From: Ancylothrix sp. D3o
GTDB lineage: Bacteria > Cyanobacteriota > Cyanobacteriia > Cyanobacteriales > Oscillatoriaceae
Direction of reading: 5' to 3'
DNA: 64,000 bases
Assembly (NCBI RefSeq): GCF_025370775.1
Contig: NZ_JAMXEX010000001.1
Span: 186,001 to 250,000, forward strand
Each line of letters starts with the position of its first letter. Position 1 is the first letter of the stretch. Position numbers and translations under genes: made by a program. The notes under the pieces are model-generated. The model had not been told where the DNA came from, searched no databases, and worked only from the letters and a program-made list of their open reading frames with translations. Positions 27,181 through 57,102 of this stretch are shown piece after piece.

Positions 27181-28332
27181 ATGGACGATAAGTTAATGTT
27201 AATGATTCCTGGCCCGACGCCGGTGCCGGAACAAGCTTTACTCGCTTTATCAAAACACCCAATAGGCCATAGAAGCGGTGATTTTAGTAAGATCATGGCT
27301 GAGGTGACGCAAAATTTAAAGTGGCTTCATCAAACCCAAAATGATGTGCTGTGTCTGACGGTAAGTGGCACCGGCGCGATGGAAGCGGGAATTATTAATT
27401 TTCTGAGTCCGGGTGATCGCGTGTTGGTGGGTACTAATGGTAAGTTTGGCGAACGCTGGGCAGAAGTTTGTACGGCTTATAATTTGAATGTGGAGACGGT
27501 GACAACCGAGTGGGGTAAAGCGCTTGATCCTGAAAAAATCCGCGAAAAGTTAGAGGCGGATAAAAATAAGGAAATTAAGGCGGTTATTGTTACTCACAGC
27601 GAAACTTCAACGGGTGTGATTAATGATTTAGAAACCATTAATCGCTATGTTAAAGAACATGGGGAAGCGTTAATTATTGTTGATGCTGTGACAAGTTTAG
27701 GTGCAGTAAATGTACCTATTGACACATGGGGGCTAGATGTAGTATGTTCTGGCTCTCAAAAAGGCTACATGATTCCGCCTGGTTTGGGATTTGTGGCGGT
27801 GAGTGCAAAGGCGTGGGAAGCTTATAAAACGGCGAAATTACCCCGATATTATTTAGATTTGGGCAAATATCGCAAGGATGCTGCTAAAAATACAACGCCC
27901 TTTACTCCGCCGGTGAATTTGTTTTTTGCCCTGCAAGCCACTTTGCAAATGATGCAAAAAGAAGGCTTGGAAAATATTTTTGCCCGTCACCAGCGCTTGA
28001 TGAATGCCACAAGAGAAGCGGTTAAGGCGTTGAATTTGCCTTTATATGGCCCGGATGAGTCGGCTAGTCCAGCTATTACGGCGGTGGCGCCGGTGGGTGT
28101 GGATGCCGAACAAGTGCGCGCTACTATGAAAAAGCAATTTGATATTGTTTTGGCCGGTGGGCAGGATCATTTGAAGGGTAAGGTTTTCCGTATCGGCCAT
28201 TTGGGTTTTGTCAGCGAACGCGATATCTTAACGGCGATTGGTGCTTTGGAAGCTACGCTGGTTGAGCTTGGCGGTAATGGTTTTACTTCGGGTGCCGGTG
28301 TTGCGGCGGCGGCTAAGGTTTTTGCGGAGTGA
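27181..28332 (+). CDS. Class V aminotransferase (serine-pyruvate / alanine-glyoxylate type)
   Basis: A 383-residue PLP enzyme. MIPGPTPVPEQALLA and HRSGDFSKIM are the family start, VSGTGAMEAGIINFLSPGDR the phosphate-binding part, VDAVTSLGAVNVPIDTWG the PLP ring Asp region, and GSQKGYMIPPGLG holds the PLP lysine. It probably transaminates serine or alanine to glyoxylate/pyruvate in photorespiration. Cyanobacterial members have also been labelled as a soluble-hydrogenase 42-kDa subunit, which I regard as a misnomer. Confidence 0.88.
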   Translation: MDDKLMLMIPGPTPVPEQALLALSKHPIGHRSGDFSKIMAEVTQNLKWLHQTQNDVLCLTVSGTGAMEAGIINFLSPGDRVLVGTNGKFGERWAEVCTAYNLNVETVTTEWGKALDPEKIREKLEADKNKEIKAVIVTHSETSTGVINDLETINRYVKEHGEALIIVDAVTSLGAVNVPIDTWGLDVVCSGSQKGYMIPPGLGFVAVSAKAWEAYKTAKLPRYYLDLGKYRKDAAKNTTPFTPPVNLFFALQATLQMMQKEGLENIFARHQRLMNATREAVKALNLPLYGPDESASPAITAVAPVGVDAEQVRATMKKQFDIVLAGGQDHLKGKVFRIGHLGFVSERDILTAIGALEATLVELGGNGFTSGAGVAAAAKVFAE

Positions 28333-31581: not shown

Positions 31582-31656
31582 GGGTGTCTGACGGGACTTG
31601 AACCCGCTTTTACTGGTTCCACAAACCAGCGTCTCGACCACTTCGACTTCAGACAC
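31582..31656 (-). tRNA. tRNA-His(GTG), last gene of the tRNA array
   Basis: Minus strand: acceptor GGTGTCTG with CAGACACC, anticodon stem CTGGT/ACCAG with loop TTGTGGA (GTG), T-arm GCGGG-TTCAAGT-CCCGT. The D-arm is poorly paired and the body differs from the usual bacterial tRNA-His. Confidence 0.8.
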
Positions 31657-31689
31657 CATAGAAAGCAAAAGTTTGGTTTTTCACCAAGT

Positions 31690-31762
31690 CCCCCTGACTG
31701 GATTTGAACCAGCAAAAACACTCGTTCTAAGCGAGTGATGTTTTCCAATTACATCACAGGGG
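31690..31762 (-). tRNA. tRNA with Leu(TAG) anticodon but class I shape
   Basis: Minus strand: acceptor CCCCTGT/TCAGGGG, D-arm GATG..CATC, anticodon stem ACTCG/CGAGT with loop CTTAGAA (anticodon TAG), T-arm CTGG-TTCAAAT-CCAG. The variable loop is only about five bases, whereas genuine bacterial tRNA-Leu has a long arm. Confidence 0.75.
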
Positions 31763-31768
31763 TAAAGT

Positions 31769-31841
31769 CGGGATGGCAGGATTTGAACCTGCAACCTTCT
31801 GGCCCCAAACCAGCCGCGCTACCAAGTTGCGCTACATCCCG
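31769..31841 (-). tRNA. tRNA-Pro(TGG), array copy
   Basis: Minus strand: CGGGATG acceptor, loop TTTGGGG (anticodon TGG) on a CTGG/CCAG stem, T-arm TGCAGG-TTCAAAT-CCTGC. It duplicates the anticodon of the free-standing gene at 40991-41063 but the anticodon stem differs and has a mismatch at its base. Confidence 0.88.
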
Positions 31842-31977
31842 TTTATGCTCTTAGTTTGGAAGTTGTTCGCTTGGCGTGTCCTAGGCATACCCACACTTAA
31901 AATAAAACAAAATTTAAGTATGCGGAATCTGCCAATTCCAAGCTAAGAGCAAGTGAAAATTTATTGAAAAAATTGGT

Positions 31978-32052
31978 ACTCCTGATGAGATTTGAACTCA
32001 CACAATAGACTGTTTTTAAGACAGCCGCCTCTACCAATTGGGCTACAGGAGT
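31978..32052 (-). tRNA. tRNA with Leu(TAA) anticodon but class I shape
   Basis: Minus strand: 7-pair acceptor ACTCCTG/CAGGAGT, D-arm GCCCAATTGGTAGAGGC, anticodon stem CTGT/ACAG with loop CTTAAAA (anticodon TAA), T-arm TGAG-TTCAAAT-CTCA. There is no long variable arm, which is abnormal for tRNA-Leu. Confidence 0.8.
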
Positions 32053-32057
32053 TTTAC

Positions 32058-32129
32058 TGCCTCGCTAGGACTCGAACCTAGACTGTCTGATCCAAAATCA
32101 GATGTGCTGCCAACTTACACCACAAGGCA
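32058..32129 (-). tRNA. tRNA-Gln(TTG)
   Basis: Minus strand: acceptor TGCCTTG/CGAGGCA, anticodon stem TCTGA/TCAGA with loop TTTTGGA (TTG), T-arm CTAGG-TTCGAGT-CCTAG. Confidence 0.88.
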
Positions 32130-32138
32130 TTAACAGGC

Positions 32139-32209
32139 TGCCCCAGTAGGACTTGAACCTACAACATCCGCGTTAACAGCGCGTCGCTCTGCCATTGAGC
32201 TATAGGGCA
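32139..32209 (-). tRNA. tRNA-Asn(GTT)
   Basis: Minus strand: acceptor TGCCCTA/TGGGGCA, D-arm GCTCAATGGCAGAGC, anticodon loop CTGTTAA (GTT) on a CGCG/CGCG stem, T-arm GTAGG-TTCAAGT-CCTAC. Confidence 0.88.
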
Positions 32210-32216
32210 ATGCCAG

Positions 32217-32291
32217 TCCCCCAGGTCAGTATCGAACTGACGACCTCTTGTTTTTCAGACAAGCGCTCTCACCAACTGAGCTACCAGGGGA
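32217..32291 (-). tRNA. tRNA-Phe(GAA)
   Basis: Minus strand: acceptor TCCCCTG with TGGGGGA, D-arm GCTCAGTTGGTGAGAGC, anticodon stem CTTGT/ACAAG with loop CTGAAAA (GAA), T-arm GTCAG-TTCGATA-CTGAC. Confidence 0.9.
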
Positions 32292-32301
32292 TTTTGATAT
32301 A

Positions 32302-32387
32302 CGGAGAGAGGGATTTGAACTCTTGACGGTTAGTTAAACCGCTCTTTCTTAGCAGGAAACTGCCATTAGCCACTCGGCCACCTCTCC
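32302..32387 (-). tRNA. tRNA-Ser(GCT), class II
   Basis: Minus strand: acceptor GGAGAGG/CTCTCC, D-arm GCCGAGTGGC, loop CTGCTAA (anticodon GCT) on a TTTC/GAAA stem, and a proper long variable arm (CGGTT/AACCG). Confidence 0.87.
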
Positions 32388-32440
32388 AAAGAATCTGGAT
32401 TTGAAGCAGCAATGCTCAAATTTACACTACCCCCTGTTGG

Positions 32441-32512
32441 TGGCACCGGCGGGACTTGCACCCGCAACCTTTAGGGTATGAACCTATTGCTCTGCTTTTG
32501 AGCTACGGTGCG
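32441..32512 (-). tRNA. tRNA-Met(CAT), non-initiator type, divergent
   Basis: Minus strand: acceptor GCACCG/CGGTGC, D-arm GCTCAAAAGCAGAGC, anticodon loop TTCATAC (CAT) on a TAGG/CCTA stem, T-arm GCGGG-TGCAAGT-CCCGC. The T-loop has TG in place of the near-universal TT. The three G-C pairs of initiator tRNA are absent; a lysidine-type Ile tRNA is possible. Confidence 0.78.
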
Positions 32513-32520
32513 ATGTCACC

Positions 32521-32595
32521 AGAGGTCAGAGTGGGATTTGAACCCACGATTTTCGGTTTTGCAGACCGATGCCTTGCCAACTTGGCTACCTGACC
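32521..32595 (-). tRNA. tRNA-Cys(GCA)
   Basis: Minus strand: acceptor GGTCAGG with TCTGACC, U73 discriminator typical of tRNA-Cys, anticodon stem TCGGT/ACCGA with loop CTGCAAA (GCA), T-arm GTGGG-TTCAAAT-CCCAC. Confidence 0.87.
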
Positions 32596-32608
32596 CAAAA
32601 ATAGAGAG

Positions 32609-32683
32609 CGGGGATAACGGGATTTGAACCCGCGACTTCTCGTTCGACAGACGAGCGCTCTTAGCCAACTAAGCTATACCCCC
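32609..32683 (-). tRNA. tRNA-Asp(GTC), first gene of the tRNA array
   Basis: Minus strand: acceptor GGGGGTA with TATCCCC, D-arm GCTTAGTTGGCTAAGAGC, anticodon stem CTCGT/ACGAG with loop CTGTCGA (GTC), T-arm GCGGG-TTCAAAT-CCCGT. Confidence 0.9.
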
Positions 32684-32787: not shown

Positions 32788-32805
32788 TTATTAAATTTTC
32801 AAGGT
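32788..32805 (-). promoter_or_regulatory. boxA-type antitermination motif in the tRNA-array leader
   Basis: On the minus strand ACCTTGAAAATTTAATAA lies about 61 bases after the -10 box and 105 bases before the first tRNA. It matches the boxA element GAACCTTGAAAA known from cyanobacterial 16S-23S spacers at all but the first bases. The identical 18-mer is in the Y RNA-like array leader at 50412-50429. Confidence 0.7.
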
Positions 32806-32865: not shown

Positions 32866-32895
32866 ATACTACATAAATACTACAAAAAGTGTCAA
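32866..32895 (-). promoter_or_regulatory. Strong promoter of the tRNA array
   Basis: On the minus strand, -35 TTGACA (32890-32895), an 18-base spacer and -10 TAGTAT (32866-32871). The spacer and -10 contain two TGTAGTAT direct repeats 11 bases apart, and A5T5 tracts lie upstream. The architecture is the same as at 50326-50355. Confidence 0.75.
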
Positions 32896-50325: not shown

Positions 50326-50355
50326 TTGACAATTTTGTAGTATGCTGTGTAGTAT
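50326..50355 (+). promoter_or_regulatory. Promoter of the Y RNA-like array
   Basis: TTGACA at 50326-50331, 18-base spacer, TAGTAT at 50350-50355. TGTAGTAT occurs twice, 12 bases apart, the second overlapping the -10. A-tract/T-tract DNA (A9T5) lies upstream. It is the same design as the tRNA-array promoter at 32866-32895. Confidence 0.8.
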
Positions 50356-50409
50356 GTAAATGTGGCAAACAAAGGCAAGGGCGAAAAACTCTGCGGATGT
50401 GGGCCGGCT

Positions 50410-50429
50410 GAACCTTGAAAATTTAATAA
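50410..50429 (+). promoter_or_regulatory. rRNA-type boxA antitermination motif
   Basis: GAACCTTGAAAATTTAATAA contains an exact copy of the cyanobacterial ITS boxA GAACCTTGAAAA. Positions 50412-50429 are identical to the tRNA-array leader at 32788-32805. It lies 55 bases past the -10 box. It implies Nus-factor-assisted transcription of a long structured transcript. Confidence 0.72.
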
Positions 50430-50484
50430 GAATTGGGCAATTTTAAGGCACGTCAATTTATAAGTCCCGTTGGGGGACTTTCAG

Positions 50485-50900
<416 letters not shown>

Positions 50901-50920
50901 ATCTGGCGAGGATTTTTGAG

Positions 50921-51055
50921 GCCGGCGTACCCTAATAAAAGCAGCTTACAAACGCTTTTGGTAATTGGAACGAAAGTTCTTTGTGGGTTCAAATCCCACC
51001 CTCTCCGTTGTTTGGAGAGGTGGCAAAATAACGCTGCTTTGACTTGTACGCCGGC
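50921..51055 (+). ncRNA. Y RNA-like element 1 (atypical tRNA-like body)
   Basis: Outer stem GCCGGCGTAC (50921-50930) pairs perfectly with GTACGCCGGC (51046-51055). Inside are the conserved CCTAA (931-) and TTTGACTT (51038-) strands and an inner stem AGCAGC/GCTGCT followed by CTTACA. The body has a GAAC-GAAA-GTTC hairpin, a T-arm GTGGG-TTCAAAT-CCCAC and an extra CCTCTCC/GGAGAGG hairpin, so only part of a tRNA shape. It begins 20 bases after the Ubl stop. Confidence 0.75.
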
Positions 51056-51101
51056 TTCTATAGCCATTGACGTAAAAAGGTTTTCTTGGTTTGAAAAATT
51101 G

Positions 51102-51227
51102 CCTTTCGCGCCCTAATTTAGAAAGCTTACATACTAGCTCACTGGTAGAGCATTACCCTCTTAAGGTAAAGGTTACAGGTTCGACCCCTGTGTATAACAC
51201 CATAGCTTTCTTGACTTGCGCGGGGGG
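51102..51227 (+). ncRNA. Y RNA-like element 2 with tRNA-Lys(CUU)-like body
   Basis: Outer stem CCTTTCGCG with CGCGGGGGG (three G-U), then CCCTAA opposite TTGACTTG, inner stem AGAAAGCT/AGCTTTCT. Enclosed is a tRNA-like fold: D-arm GCTC-ACTGGTA-GAGC, anticodon stem TTACC/GGTAA with loop CTCTTAA (CUU), T-arm ACAGG-TTCGACC-CCTGT. The acceptor is reduced to ATAC/GTAT joined to the Y stem. Not a functional tRNA end. Confidence 0.8.
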
Positions 51228-51303
51228 ACTTTTCATGCTGATAGTAAACAATTTTAAATTCCTGTTTTTGCCTCTGCGTTTAAAGTTTAAAATCCCAAAA
51301 TTT

Positions 51304-51456
51304 TCACTTCGCGCCCTAACTGAAAAAGCTTACATACTAGCTCAGTGGTAGAGCACTCGACTCTTAATCGATTTGTCACAGGTATGCGCTTACGCGCACG
51401 CTACGCGAACAAATCCTGTATATGTGATCATGGCTTTTTTAACTTGCGCGAAGTGA
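51304..51456 (+). ncRNA. Y RNA-like element 3 with Lys-like body and interrupted T-loop
   Basis: Outer stem TCACTTCGCG (51304-51313) pairs perfectly with CGCGAAGTGA (51447-51456). CCCTAAC opposes TTAACTTG; inner stem AAAAAGC/GCTTTTT. D-arm GCTCAGTGGTAGAGC, anticodon stem TCGA/TCGA with loop CTCTTAA (CUU). The T-arm ACAGG/CCTGT is split by about 26 inserted bases (51384-51409, starting ATGCGCTTACGCGCACG), a palindromic dispersed repeat type. Confidence 0.8.
51384..51409 (+). repeat. Short dispersed palindromic repeat inserted in the T-loop of element 3
   Basis: The inserted segment begins ATGCGCTTACGCGCACG and ends GCTACGCGAA. Its GCGC/TACGCG-rich palindromic style matches short dispersed repeats seen in cyanobacterial genomes, some of which insert in structural RNA loops. 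Confidence 0.55.
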
Positions 51457-51539
51457 CTTTTATTTGGGTGAAAGATGAGAGGTTTGGCGGTGCCGGCAAC
51501 TGGATTTTGTTAACCCATAAAAGCCAGTCAAAAGAAAGA

Positions 51540-52508
51540 ATGAGCGAACACCGCTTAAATGAAATTGTGATTGAACGGCCTCGCAATGGTATGAGGTTGA
51601 GTTCAACAAAGGTTAAAGGTTTTCAAAAGTCTCTGTACAAACTAACAAAAATTGCCACCGAAGATGGTTTGTTGAGTCCGTATTTGATTAAGACAAGAAC
51701 TCGGACAAAATATCTGTCGGATCATTTGGGCCCGTTACGCCGGCTTTTACGTTCTAAGGTGGGGAAACCTTGGGATGAGGTGTATAGTGAATTGCGGCGG
51801 AGACTTGATTTTAATACTGTAACCGGCTTGCACGTTCTGTCTCATGTTTGGGATTTTGTCTATAAGGATGTGGAGATTATTGACGGGGAGGTTTATTTGA
51901 AAGCTGGAAGCCGGCGCTTTGGAGGCGGATTTGGTGGCCGGAGAGATCGTTTTTATATCCACCCTGAAACCGGCATTCTTTGTTTTTTTGAGTCAACTCC
52001 CTCGATATGGCAGCCCAAAACAGCAATCAGAAACGAGAAAATTGTTATTGATGCTTACCACGAATATCAAAAGATTAATGATTTTTGGTATGAGGTGGAG
52101 TTTAAGGATTTTCCGCCGGTTCTGATTGCAAGGGATGTGATTTTGGAAAAACAAATTTCTCGCCGTGAGTGTTGGTGTTTTTACCGCAAGGCTGTTTATG
52201 CGGTTAAAAAACAATTGTGCCGGCAGGATGAGTTGAAGTTTTTGCAATCTCTTGATGAGCAAAAGTTGAGTCTTGGGGTTGTGAAAATTAATGATTACTG
52301 CCAATATCGCTTAATTGATGATCGGTGGTATGTGGTGACGCTGGCAGATTTTCCTAGGCCGGTGGTGTTGCGAGATGTTGTGATGAAGGAAAATATCACT
52401 ATCTATCAGGCAAATTGTTGCTATGGCCGGTCTGTTTATGCAGCACACAAACGCCAGTGTAGTAAGAAAGAAATCCAGTTCATTATGTCGGAGTTAGTCG
52501 GCGGTTAA
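51540..52508 (+). CDS. Unrecognised protein encoded inside the Y RNA-like array
   Basis: 322 residues. The N-terminal half is basic (KVKGFQKSLYKLTKIATEDG; RTRTKYLSDHLGPLRRLLRS, then SELRRRLDF). The C-terminal half has two related segments: INDFWYEVEFKDFPPVLIAR-DVILEK..SRRECWCFYRKAVYAVKKQLC and YRLIDDRWYVVTLADFPRPV-VLRDVV..QANCCYGRSVYAAHKRQC, i.e. an internal repeat with conserved W/F/D and a C-x-RKAVYA-x-K-Q motif. Probably nucleic-acid binding given charge and context (inference). ATG at 51540; the frame is open upstream but overlaps element 3. Confidence 0.7.
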   Translation: MSEHRLNEIVIERPRNGMRLSSTKVKGFQKSLYKLTKIATEDGLLSPYLIKTRTRTKYLSDHLGPLRRLLRSKVGKPWDEVYSELRRRLDFNTVTGLHVLSHVWDFVYKDVEIIDGEVYLKAGSRRFGGGFGGRRDRFYIHPETGILCFFESTPSIWQPKTAIRNEKIVIDAYHEYQKINDFWYEVEFKDFPPVLIARDVILEKQISRRECWCFYRKAVYAVKKQLCRQDELKFLQSLDEQKLSLGVVKINDYCQYRLIDDRWYVVTLADFPRPVVLRDVVMKENITIYQANCCYGRSVYAAHKRQCSKKEIQFIMSELVGG

Positions 52509-52553
52509 AACCGGCATCTACACGAACAAAGTCCCTAACGGGACTAGGCGAAT

Positions 52554-52686
52554 AATCACTTCGCGCCCTAACTAACAAAGCTTACATACTAGCCAAATGG
52601 AAAAGGCGCTTGATTTAGGTTCAAGTATATGTGGGTTCAATTCCTGCGTATGAAACAACGGCTTTGTTAACTTGCGTGAAGTGATT
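52554..52686 (+). ncRNA. Y RNA-like element 4 with tRNA-Leu(UAG)-like body
   Basis: Outer stem AATCACTTCGCG (52554-52565) pairs with CGTGAAGTGATT (52675-52686), one G-U. CCCTAAC opposes TTAACTTG; inner stem TAACAAAGC/GCTTTGTTA is 9 perfect pairs. D-arm GCC..GGC, anticodon stem CTTGA/TCAAG with loop TTTAGGT (UAG), T-arm GTGGG-TTCAATT-CCTGC, acceptor remnant CATAC/GTATG. Confidence 0.82.
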
Positions 52687-52761
52687 TTATTTCTGTTACC
52701 TGTTGCAAAAACCATTTCAAGAAATTTACAACTTTCTTGCTCCTTTTTTCAGCCGAAAATT

Positions 52762-52903
52762 ACCACTCCGCGTCCTAACCGGCAAAGCTTACATACATAC
52801 TAGCCGAATTACAGGCGCTTGACTCAAGATCAAGTCTCGCAAGAGATTGTGGGTTTAATTCCCACGTTTGTAAACAAGGCTTTGCTGACTTGCGCGGGGT
52901 GGT
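52762..52903 (+). ncRNA. Y RNA-like element 5 with class II tRNA-Leu(CAA)-like body
   Basis: Outer stem ACCACTCCGCG (52762-52772) with CGCGGGGTGGT (52893-52903). CCTAAC opposes CTGACTTG; inner stem CGGCAAAGC/GCTTTGCTG. D-arm GCC..GGC, anticodon stem CTTGA/TCAAG with loop CTCAAGA (CAA), a real variable-arm hairpin TCTC-GCAA-GAGA, T-arm GTGGG-TTTAATT-CCCAC. This is the only copy with a class II shape. Confidence 0.82.
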
Positions 52904-52944
52904 TAATTTTTAATTTAAAAAATAGGTTTGTGGAGGGTAAAGTT

Positions 52945-53472
52945 ATGGCAAATAATACAGGAATTTTAGAAAAAATTAAACGCTTAACCGACCAAGAGAA
53001 AGGGGAAATGGTGCAGCGAATTCAGGAAACTTCGATAACGAAATCGGCAAAAGTTTGGACAACCGGAGAAATAGATAAATTACTAACGGCTTTTCAATCT
53101 GCAACTTTGCCGAGAAGTGAGTGGAACCATGAGGCGCATTTAATTGTTGCTTTGTGGTATTTGCAGAATTATCCAGAAACGCAAGCAATCAACCGCATTC
53201 GTTATGGAATTCAAAGATATAACCGCCTTTGTGGCATCAAAACAACAAAGGATAATGGCTATCACGAAACCTTAACGCTGTTCTGGATAAAAATGGTGAG
53301 TTGTTATCTTTTAAAAACTGATCAAGCTCGTTATTTTGAACAAACAGCGAGGAGTTTAATTGAAAACTTGGGAGAGGTTTATTTGCCTTTCAAATATTAC
53401 AGTCGGGAACGATTGTTATCTTGGGAAGCTCGCATAAAGTGGATGGAACCTGATTTGAAAAACTTTGCATAA
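52945..53472 (+). CDS. Unrecognised protein encoded inside the Y RNA-like array
   Basis: 175 residues, SD GGAGGG. After a charged helix (KIKRLTDQEKGEMVQRIQE) the core has a WNHEAHLIVALWYLQNYPET motif, INRIRYGIQRYNRLCGIKTT, and GYHETLTLFWIKMVSCYLLK. The H-x2-H and later G-Y-H-E-T could bind metal. I do not recognise the family. Ends 10 bases before element 6. Confidence 0.75.
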   Translation: MANNTGILEKIKRLTDQEKGEMVQRIQETSITKSAKVWTTGEIDKLLTAFQSATLPRSEWNHEAHLIVALWYLQNYPETQAINRIRYGIQRYNRLCGIKTTKDNGYHETLTLFWIKMVSCYLLKTDQARYFEQTARSLIENLGEVYLPFKYYSRERLLSWEARIKWMEPDLKNFA

Positions 53473-53482
53473 AATGATAGTT

Positions 53483-55057
<1,575 letters not shown>

Positions 55058-55084
55058 GTTTGTGGTGCCGGTTTTTCAAATGAT

Positions 55085-55119
55085 AAAAACCCGGTTTTGT
55101 GAAAGAAACCGGGTTTTTT
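55085..55119 (+). terminator. Intrinsic terminator after the Ro60-like gene
   Basis: AAAAACCCGGTTT pairs with AAACCGGG plus a T-run; ends the Y RNA/Ro60 unit. Confidence 0.85.
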
Positions 55120-55147
55120 CTATCTCTAGTGAATTAGCAGAAAAAAT

Positions 55148-56553: not shown

Positions 56554-57102
56554 ATGCTCAGCGAGTCTCGCCTCGTTAAAATAAGTAAATACTTGAGTTA
56601 CCATCTGCGACACGCGCCAGAAAAACTCGGCCTTAAACTTGATGAAGGGGGGTGGGTGCCGGTGTTAGACTTGTTAGAGTCCGCCAAAAAAGATCAGTTT
56701 CCAATTTCCTTAGAAGAGTTAAAACAAGTTGTTGATAAAGATGATAAAAAACGCTATTCCTTTGATTTTACCGACAAGCTGATCCGCGCCAACCAAGGAC
56801 ACAGCATAAAAGTCGATCTACAATTAAAAGAAGCCCTCCCACCGGATATCCTTTATCACGGTACAGGACAGAAAACCGTTGAGTCAATTTTGCATAAAGG
56901 TTTATCCAAAATGTCTCGGCATCACGTTCATTTATCCGCCGATATGGAAACTGCAAAAAAAGTAGGAAAACGTCACGGTAAACCGGTTATTTTAGCAGTT
57001 GATGCTCAAACTATGTACAAAGCCGGATATCCTTTTTACTGTTCAGATAATGGAGTTTGGTTAGTCGAAAGCGTCCCCCCAGAGTATTTGCAACTTATCT
57101 GA
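56554..57102 (+). CDS. kptA: RNA 2'-phosphotransferase (Tpt1/KptA)
   Basis: 182 residues. The N-terminal winged helix has SKYLSYHLRHAPEKLGLKLD and the C-terminal ADP-ribosyltransferase-like domain has ILYHGTGQKTVESILHKGLS and RHHVHLS. It uses NAD+ to remove the 2'-phosphate left by some RNA ligation pathways. Most bacteria with kptA lack introns needing it, so repair or NAD-linked roles are suggested. First of a run of co-directional genes. Confidence 0.95.
   Translation: MLSESRLVKISKYLSYHLRHAPEKLGLKLDEGGWVPVLDLLESAKKDQFPISLEELKQVVDKDDKKRYSFDFTDKLIRANQGHSIKVDLQLKEALPPDILYHGTGQKTVESILHKGLSKMSRHHVHLSADMETAKKVGKRHGKPVILAVDAQTMYKAGYPFYCSDNGVWLVESVPPEYLQLI

Follow-up and report, generated by a model that had tools for sequence, protein, structure and literature searches.

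Two stable-RNA units in the window (the whole stretch of 64,000 nucleotides analysed here), a long tRNA array and a unit of Y RNA-like elements that ends in the gene for a Ro60-like protein, carry the same control region. The sequence comparisons suggest that both units are under one stress switch operated by the repressor TrcR, with antitermination at boxA as the likely next step, a reading to which we assign a probability of roughly 0.77.

TrcR is a ribbon-helix-helix repressor, and its DNase-footprinted site at the trn promoter of Anabaena PCC 7120 is TGTAGTAT, which overlaps the TAGTAT -10 element; the trn array under its control has 26 genes (PMC10272220). Deletion of trcR derepresses the trn array, rtcB, rsgA, rimK and trcR itself, and upon treatment with translation elongation inhibitors such as chloramphenicol, the TrcR protein falls and the same genes are derepressed (PMC10272220). 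In an erythromycin-kept strain, the L-array, its neighbour HNH gene, rtcB and alr0739-0740 shift together (PMC9938897). The TrcR paper does not mention Y RNA or Ro60, and a Ro60-like gene is absent from its table of the Anabaena regulon (PMC10272220), probably because that strain does not have the locus.

Two stable-RNA units with one promoter and leader

The two control regions and the tRNA array comprise the following features, the promoters being assigned from the sequence:

50326-50355 (+): promoter of the Y RNA/Ro60-like unit; TTGACA at 50326-50331, 18-base spacer, TAGTAT at 50350-50355
50336-50343 (+): predicted upstream copy of the TrcR operator, TGTAGTAT, identical to the site footprinted with TrcR at the Anabaena trn promoter (PMC10272220)
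50348-50355 (+): predicted copy of the TrcR operator, TGTAGTAT, overlapping the -10 element and identical to the same Anabaena trn site (PMC10272220)
50410-50429 (+): rRNA-type boxA in the Y unit leader, GAACCTTGAAAATTTAATAA, named after boxA of rRNA spacers and leaders in relatives
32866-32895 (-): promoter of the tRNA array; TTGACA at 32895-32890, 18-base spacer, TAGTAT at 32871-32866
32788-32805 (-): boxA-type leader element of the tRNA array, ACCTTGAAAATTTAATAA, 60 bases past the -10 element
31582-32683 (-): long tRNA array with 11 tRNA genes (ARAGORN)

An earlier note on this DNA had claimed a common promoter with a repeat 11-12 bases apart, and the sequence confirms it: the two copies of TGTAGTAT are 12 bases apart in the Y unit and 11 bases apart in the tRNA unit (32884-32877 and 32873-32866, minus strand). 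An A/T tract lies immediately 5' of the -35 element in the Y unit, and the promoter at 50326-50355 is kept at orthologous loci. Like an L-array, the tRNA unit at 31582-32683 is a long run of tRNAs behind one promoter with a TrcR site. One further copy of TGTAGTAT behind a TTGACA, at 27738-27745, was rejected as a promoter; it lies inside an aminotransferase-like coding sequence.

The identity of an 18-mer, ACCTTGAAAATTTAATAA, in both leaders, said to lie 55-61 bases past the -10 element, also holds, at distances of 56 bases in the Y unit (50412-50429, plus strand) and 60 bases in the tRNA unit. Its proposed match to cyanobacterial boxA is supported, with a small correction. The rRNA-type boxA was read in six relatives; a 16S search of this genome's assembly gave no rRNA. 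All six carry GAACCTTGAAAA in the 16S-23S spacer, and two in the 16S leader; likewise, the spacer has GAACCTTGAAAACTGCATAG in all six, and two have GAACCTTGAAAATATTATAG or GAACCTTGAAAAAATTATAG in their 16S leader. These matches in the rRNA spacers and leaders of relatives support the name boxA. The correction is that the full 12-mer GAACCTTGAAAA is present in the Y leader only (12/12), whereas the tRNA leader has GCACCTTGAAAA (11/12). The 16S leaders of six genomes contained no TGTAGTAT. GAACCTTGAAAA is common to the Y unit leader and the boxA of cyanobacterial rRNA operons (16S leader and 16S-23S spacer), but here boxA sits behind the TrcR-type promoter of non-rRNA arrays. NusB-boxA antitermination at the two leaders would be plausible.

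With up to three mismatches allowed, the 18-mer occurs at two places in the window, both perfect, compared to 0.28 expected. Exact copies in the whole 6.57 Mb genome are found in the two control regions only, which answers the concern that the 18-mer might be common upstream of unrelated genes. Allowing three mismatches genome-wide gives 26 places versus 24 for the reversed pattern, showing that the weaker matches are background. We also searched 388 cyanobacterial genomes with a pattern for the whole cassette (TTGACA-N12-17-TGTAGTAT-N40-70-ACCWTGAAAA). The control regions of the Y and tRNA units are its only occurrences in this genome, the outcome of a genome-wide search that the earlier note had proposed. 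There are 16 matches in 13 of the 388 genomes (control matches, 0), and all 14 outside this genome stand before long tRNA arrays. Plasmid arrays of Nostoc and Calothrix have the same order of promoter and operator, and their leaders contain GAACCATGAAAAC or a sequence that has diverged further.

A TrcR orthologue in the same genome

Via the published auto-operator, we located a TrcR orthologue of 111 aa at a single locus of this genome. The gene lies directly behind the auto-operator ATACTACACTAATATTAC, next to an oppositely oriented HNH endonuclease gene, as at all0854/alr0856; residue 44 is Leu, as in TrcR. The published auto-operator ATACTACACTTGTATTAC is exact in 3 of 4 inspected relatives of the orthologue, with the same HNH neighbour. 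With TGTAGTAT-type sites at the -10 element and TrcR encoded in the genome, both units have the sequence features expected of members of the TrcR regulon. An orthologue is present in 239 of 388 cyanobacterial genomes and in 38 of the 40 with a Ro60-like match, the two exceptions being a weak match and a fragment; this co-occurrence is weak evidence because large genomes tend to have both genes. Upstream of rtcB in this genome (L251), no TrcR-type site was found; since rtcB is a TrcR target in Anabaena, the content of the regulon may differ between species. Two Nodularia phage homologues of TrcR are reported in the TrcR paper (PMC10272220), and our search for phage homologues at E 1e-5 found none.

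Y RNA-like elements and a remote Ro60-like protein

Behind the control region at 50326-50429, the Y unit contains:

50700-50900 (+): 66-aa protein that matches no family and is conserved in 30 other Ro60-like loci
50923-51053 (+): Y RNA-like unit 1
51104-51225 (+): Y RNA-like unit 2, interior called tRNA-Lys by ARAGORN
51307-51453 (+): Y RNA-like unit 3, interior matching Rfam tRNA
51465-52508 (+): ORF without an assigned family, flanked by Y units 3 and 4; 12 related loci have relatives
52559-52681 (+): Y RNA-like unit 4, interior called tRNA-Leu
52766-52899 (+): Y RNA-like unit 5, interior called tRNA-Leu
52945-53472 (+): ORF without an assigned family, with relatives in 4 related loci
53485-53556 (+): Y RNA-like unit 6, short, with no tRNA-like interior
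53621-55057 (+): Ro60-like protein, 478 aa, putative remote TROVE part and vWA with DxSxS; last gene of the Y unit
55084-55120 (+): intrinsic-terminator-like hairpin closing the Y unit (fold -19.6 kcal/mol, z -5.2)

Transcription as a single long RNA would fit the Y unit, given that no promoter-like site besides the one at 50326-50355 was found on the plus strand from 50326 to 55134, that a hairpin stands at the end (55084-55120), and that relatives have a one-cluster arrangement. The 66-aa protein is a candidate partner of the Y RNP. The C-terminal half of the ORF at 51465-52508 holds an internal repeat.

Each Y-like RNA has an 8-bp closing stem, an internal loop with CCTAA(C/T) opposite (A/G)ACTT, and a second 8-bp stem, and the loop letters CCTAA(C/T) and ACTT are almost invariant. 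Covariation was assessed in 27 units from 17 loci, selected by a rule that used the outer stem (helix 1) and not the inner one (helix 2). Standard pairs fill 95.8% of pair cells, and 11 of 16 pairs show two-sided changes; these values were reached by 0 of 500 shuffles, and slid versions came nowhere near. Helix 2 alone has six pairs with two-sided changes. With a closing stem, a conserved internal loop and covariation, the elements would be classed as Y RNAs by their stems.

The Ro60-like protein has no match above the cut-off to Pfam TROVE (PF05731). A profile of the family with viral relatives added aligns with cyanobacterial TROVE proteins in hhalign at E 1.4e-5 and 2.1e-6 (probability 80-89%) over 301 collinear columns that include the vWA DxSxS; without the viral relatives, E is 0.009. 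Among PDB entries, the weak first matches to the protein are TROVE chains, at E of about 1, and a profile search of the PDB found no TROVE chain. Because the Pfam match is absent and the profile alignment is remote, we name the protein Ro60-like and do not call it a TROVE member.

Ro60-like proteins with 44-50% identity are encoded on three viral contigs (L245, L247 and L248). In two of these, 13-16 tRNA genes precede the Ro60-like gene on its strand. A Y-like stem on L248 reads CCGAC instead of CCTAAC.

TrcR-type sites at related Ro60-like loci

To compare the upstream regions of Ro60-like genes, two sets of loci were used, in both of which related genera are over-represented, so that the loci are partly dependent. 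The first set, which includes the window, consists of 32 loci whose upstream DNA exceeds 1 kb. Plus-strand TGTAGTAT is present upstream in 30 of these (shuffles: mean 2.4, maximum 7), a close tandem in 16 (shuffles, 0), and TTGAC(A/G) at promoter distance in 14 (shuffles, mean 0.01). The second set, with no overlap, consists of 73 named loci, with minus-strand, reversed and complemented versions as the respective controls. A TGTAGTAT site is found in 58/73 (controls 17, 24 and 2), the exact sequence being missing in 15; TTGACA plus the site in 24/73 and the site followed by boxA in 32/73 (controls 0, 0 and 0 for each). Site and boxA are mostly 42-54 bases apart, compared to 54 in the window. 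As a control for the protein family, we took 20 cyanobacterial loci whose proteins match Pfam TROVE; plus-strand TGTAGTAT lies within about 1.5 kb in 1 of 20, indicating that the operator is tied to the cryptic Ro60-like family and not to TROVE proteins at large. Many Ro60-like loci have a TrcR site without the boxA pattern, and boxA is thus not obligatory.

Several loci (L100, L101, L105, L110 and others) have a second, inverted TrcR-like pair (ATACTACA adjoining TGTAGTAT) approximately 6.2-7.2 kb 5' of the Ro60-like gene, perhaps the promoter of another gene.

The two halves that are separate in the window are frequently joined elsewhere. In 11 of the 32 loci of the first set, 23-33 tRNAs immediately precede the Y RNAs and the Ro60-like gene on the same strand; in 11 of the 73 loci of the second set, at least 20 (20-33) are found upstream on that strand. 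The linked loci of both sets together represent approximately 22 species. Linked clusters of the first set usually have a TrcR-type promoter before the first tRNA, with boxA in several. In Kovacikia minuta CCNUW1, the tRNA-Y RNA-Ro60-like cluster is on a plasmid. Tandem halves, each with its own promoter and boxA, are found in Microcoleus sp. FACHB-61 (L175), Microcoleus sp. LEGE 07076 (L193) and one complete genome (G277), and separate halves, each with its own promoter and boxA, in two other genomes (G339 and G123) and in this one. Our search of the open-access literature found no description of tRNA arrays with TROVE or Y RNA in cyanobacteria.

The repeat is the known TrcR operator, and the same arrangement is seen across cyanobacteria at tRNA arrays and Y RNA/Ro60-like loci, which strongly supports the co-regulation proposed in the earlier note. 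The best reading of these sequences is that the translational-stress regulon of TrcR includes the Y RNA/Ro60-like loci.

Proposed mechanism and alternatives

We propose that TrcR would bind the tandem TGTAGTAT over the spacer and -10 element of a strong sigma-70-type promoter and silence both units during normal growth. When translation is impaired, the level of TrcR would fall, as has been shown in Anabaena, and both units would fire. The rRNA-type boxA in each leader most likely loads an antitermination complex of the NusB/S10 type, which would let the polymerase cross a long structured array that holds tRNAs in one unit and Y RNAs interspersed with protein genes in the other. The tRNA unit would then provide a reserve supply of tRNAs and the Y unit the Y RNAs plus the Ro60-like protein, which probably deal with tRNA-like RNA that is damaged or misfolded. 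Three steps of this scheme are inferred: control of the Y unit by TrcR, antitermination, and the part played by the Y RNA/Ro60-like particle. We give even odds to a more extensive version, in which an ancestral TrcR-repressed stress operon with rRNA-style antitermination has the tRNA array as one half and the Y RNA/Ro60-like unit as the other, the Y RNP acting on tRNAs that are damaged or newly made under translational stress. If true, the Y RNP operon would fill the place of the RtcR-controlled Rsr/Y RNA/RtcB operons of other bacteria.

The many operator-bearing Ro60-like loci without a boxA pattern could also mean that TrcR controls both units while the leader's GAACCTTGAAAA serves in RNA processing or is bound by another protein, and is not an antitermination signal. 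We consider this possible but unlikely, as rRNA operons of the order have the same 12-mer in their 16S leader and 16S-23S spacer, and here it precedes long untranslated arrays, where antitermination would be useful. It is clearly improbable that recombination copied the cassette from one unit to the other, where it persisted as a generic strong promoter for stable RNA, the two units sharing no regulation by TrcR. Recent copying or conversion would fit the letter-identical 18-mers of the window, given that relatives with both units have differing boxA tails; however, a generic promoter has no need of the TGTAGTAT operator, which is nevertheless kept at Ro60-like loci of diverged genera with different flanks and is missing from the rRNA leaders of six genomes.

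We give least credence to the view that the Y-like elements are decayed tRNA genes, the linked gene codes for an unrelated vWA protein, and the promoter is that of a degenerate array. ARAGORN and Rfam do call several Y units tRNA, and Pfam finds no TROVE domain in the linked protein. Against this, both Y stems covary, including helix 2, which was not used in picking units, the internal-loop letters are nearly invariant, and the profile match to cyanobacterial TROVE proteins described above is at odds with an unrelated vWA protein. A common TrcR switch for both units, with boxA antitermination as the likely next step, remains our preferred reading.

Comparison to known systems

The trn operon (L-array) of Anabaena sp. 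PCC 7120 (PMC10272220) resembles the tRNA unit in its long tRNA array, in TGTAGTAT over a TAGTAT -10 element and in an encoded TrcR. The Anabaena array stands alone on a megaplasmid, whereas here the same control region includes a boxA leader and also heads a separate unit of Y RNAs and a Ro60-like gene. In Salmonella, Rsr, Y RNAs and RtcB are encoded in one operon that is switched on by tRNA fragments through RtcR (PMC7790460), a regulator with which the TrcR authors compared TrcR regarding rtcB (PMC10272220). The Salmonella rsr-yrlBA-rtcBA operon (PMC7790460) likewise encodes a Ro60-type protein together with tRNA-like Y RNAs, and this single unit is induced by stress and tied to tRNA damage; the arrangement here is known from sequence. 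However, its regulator RtcR is a sigma-54 activator (PMC7790460), whereas TrcR is a ribbon-helix-helix repressor, and the unit described here has no RtcB, encodes a protein without a Pfam TROVE match and is linked to tRNA arrays.

The function and control of bacterial Y RNA and Ro60 are largely open, and few species have been studied, among them Deinococcus and Salmonella (PMC7790460). Our reading would tie cyanobacterial Y RNA/Ro60-like loci to a defined repressor, a defined stress and reserve tRNAs, often in one gene cluster, and the purpose of the particle would become directly testable with the existing trcR deletion mutant and the known inducers. If true, it would also place rRNA-type antitermination in a stress-induced stable-RNA unit outside rRNA operons.

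Lastly, 3' of the Ro60-like gene lies a gene for an RNA 2'-phosphotransferase (Tpt1/KptA; 56554-57102, plus strand; Pfam E 8.6e-57), which is also found downstream of the Ro60-like gene in nine related loci, a link to RNA repair.
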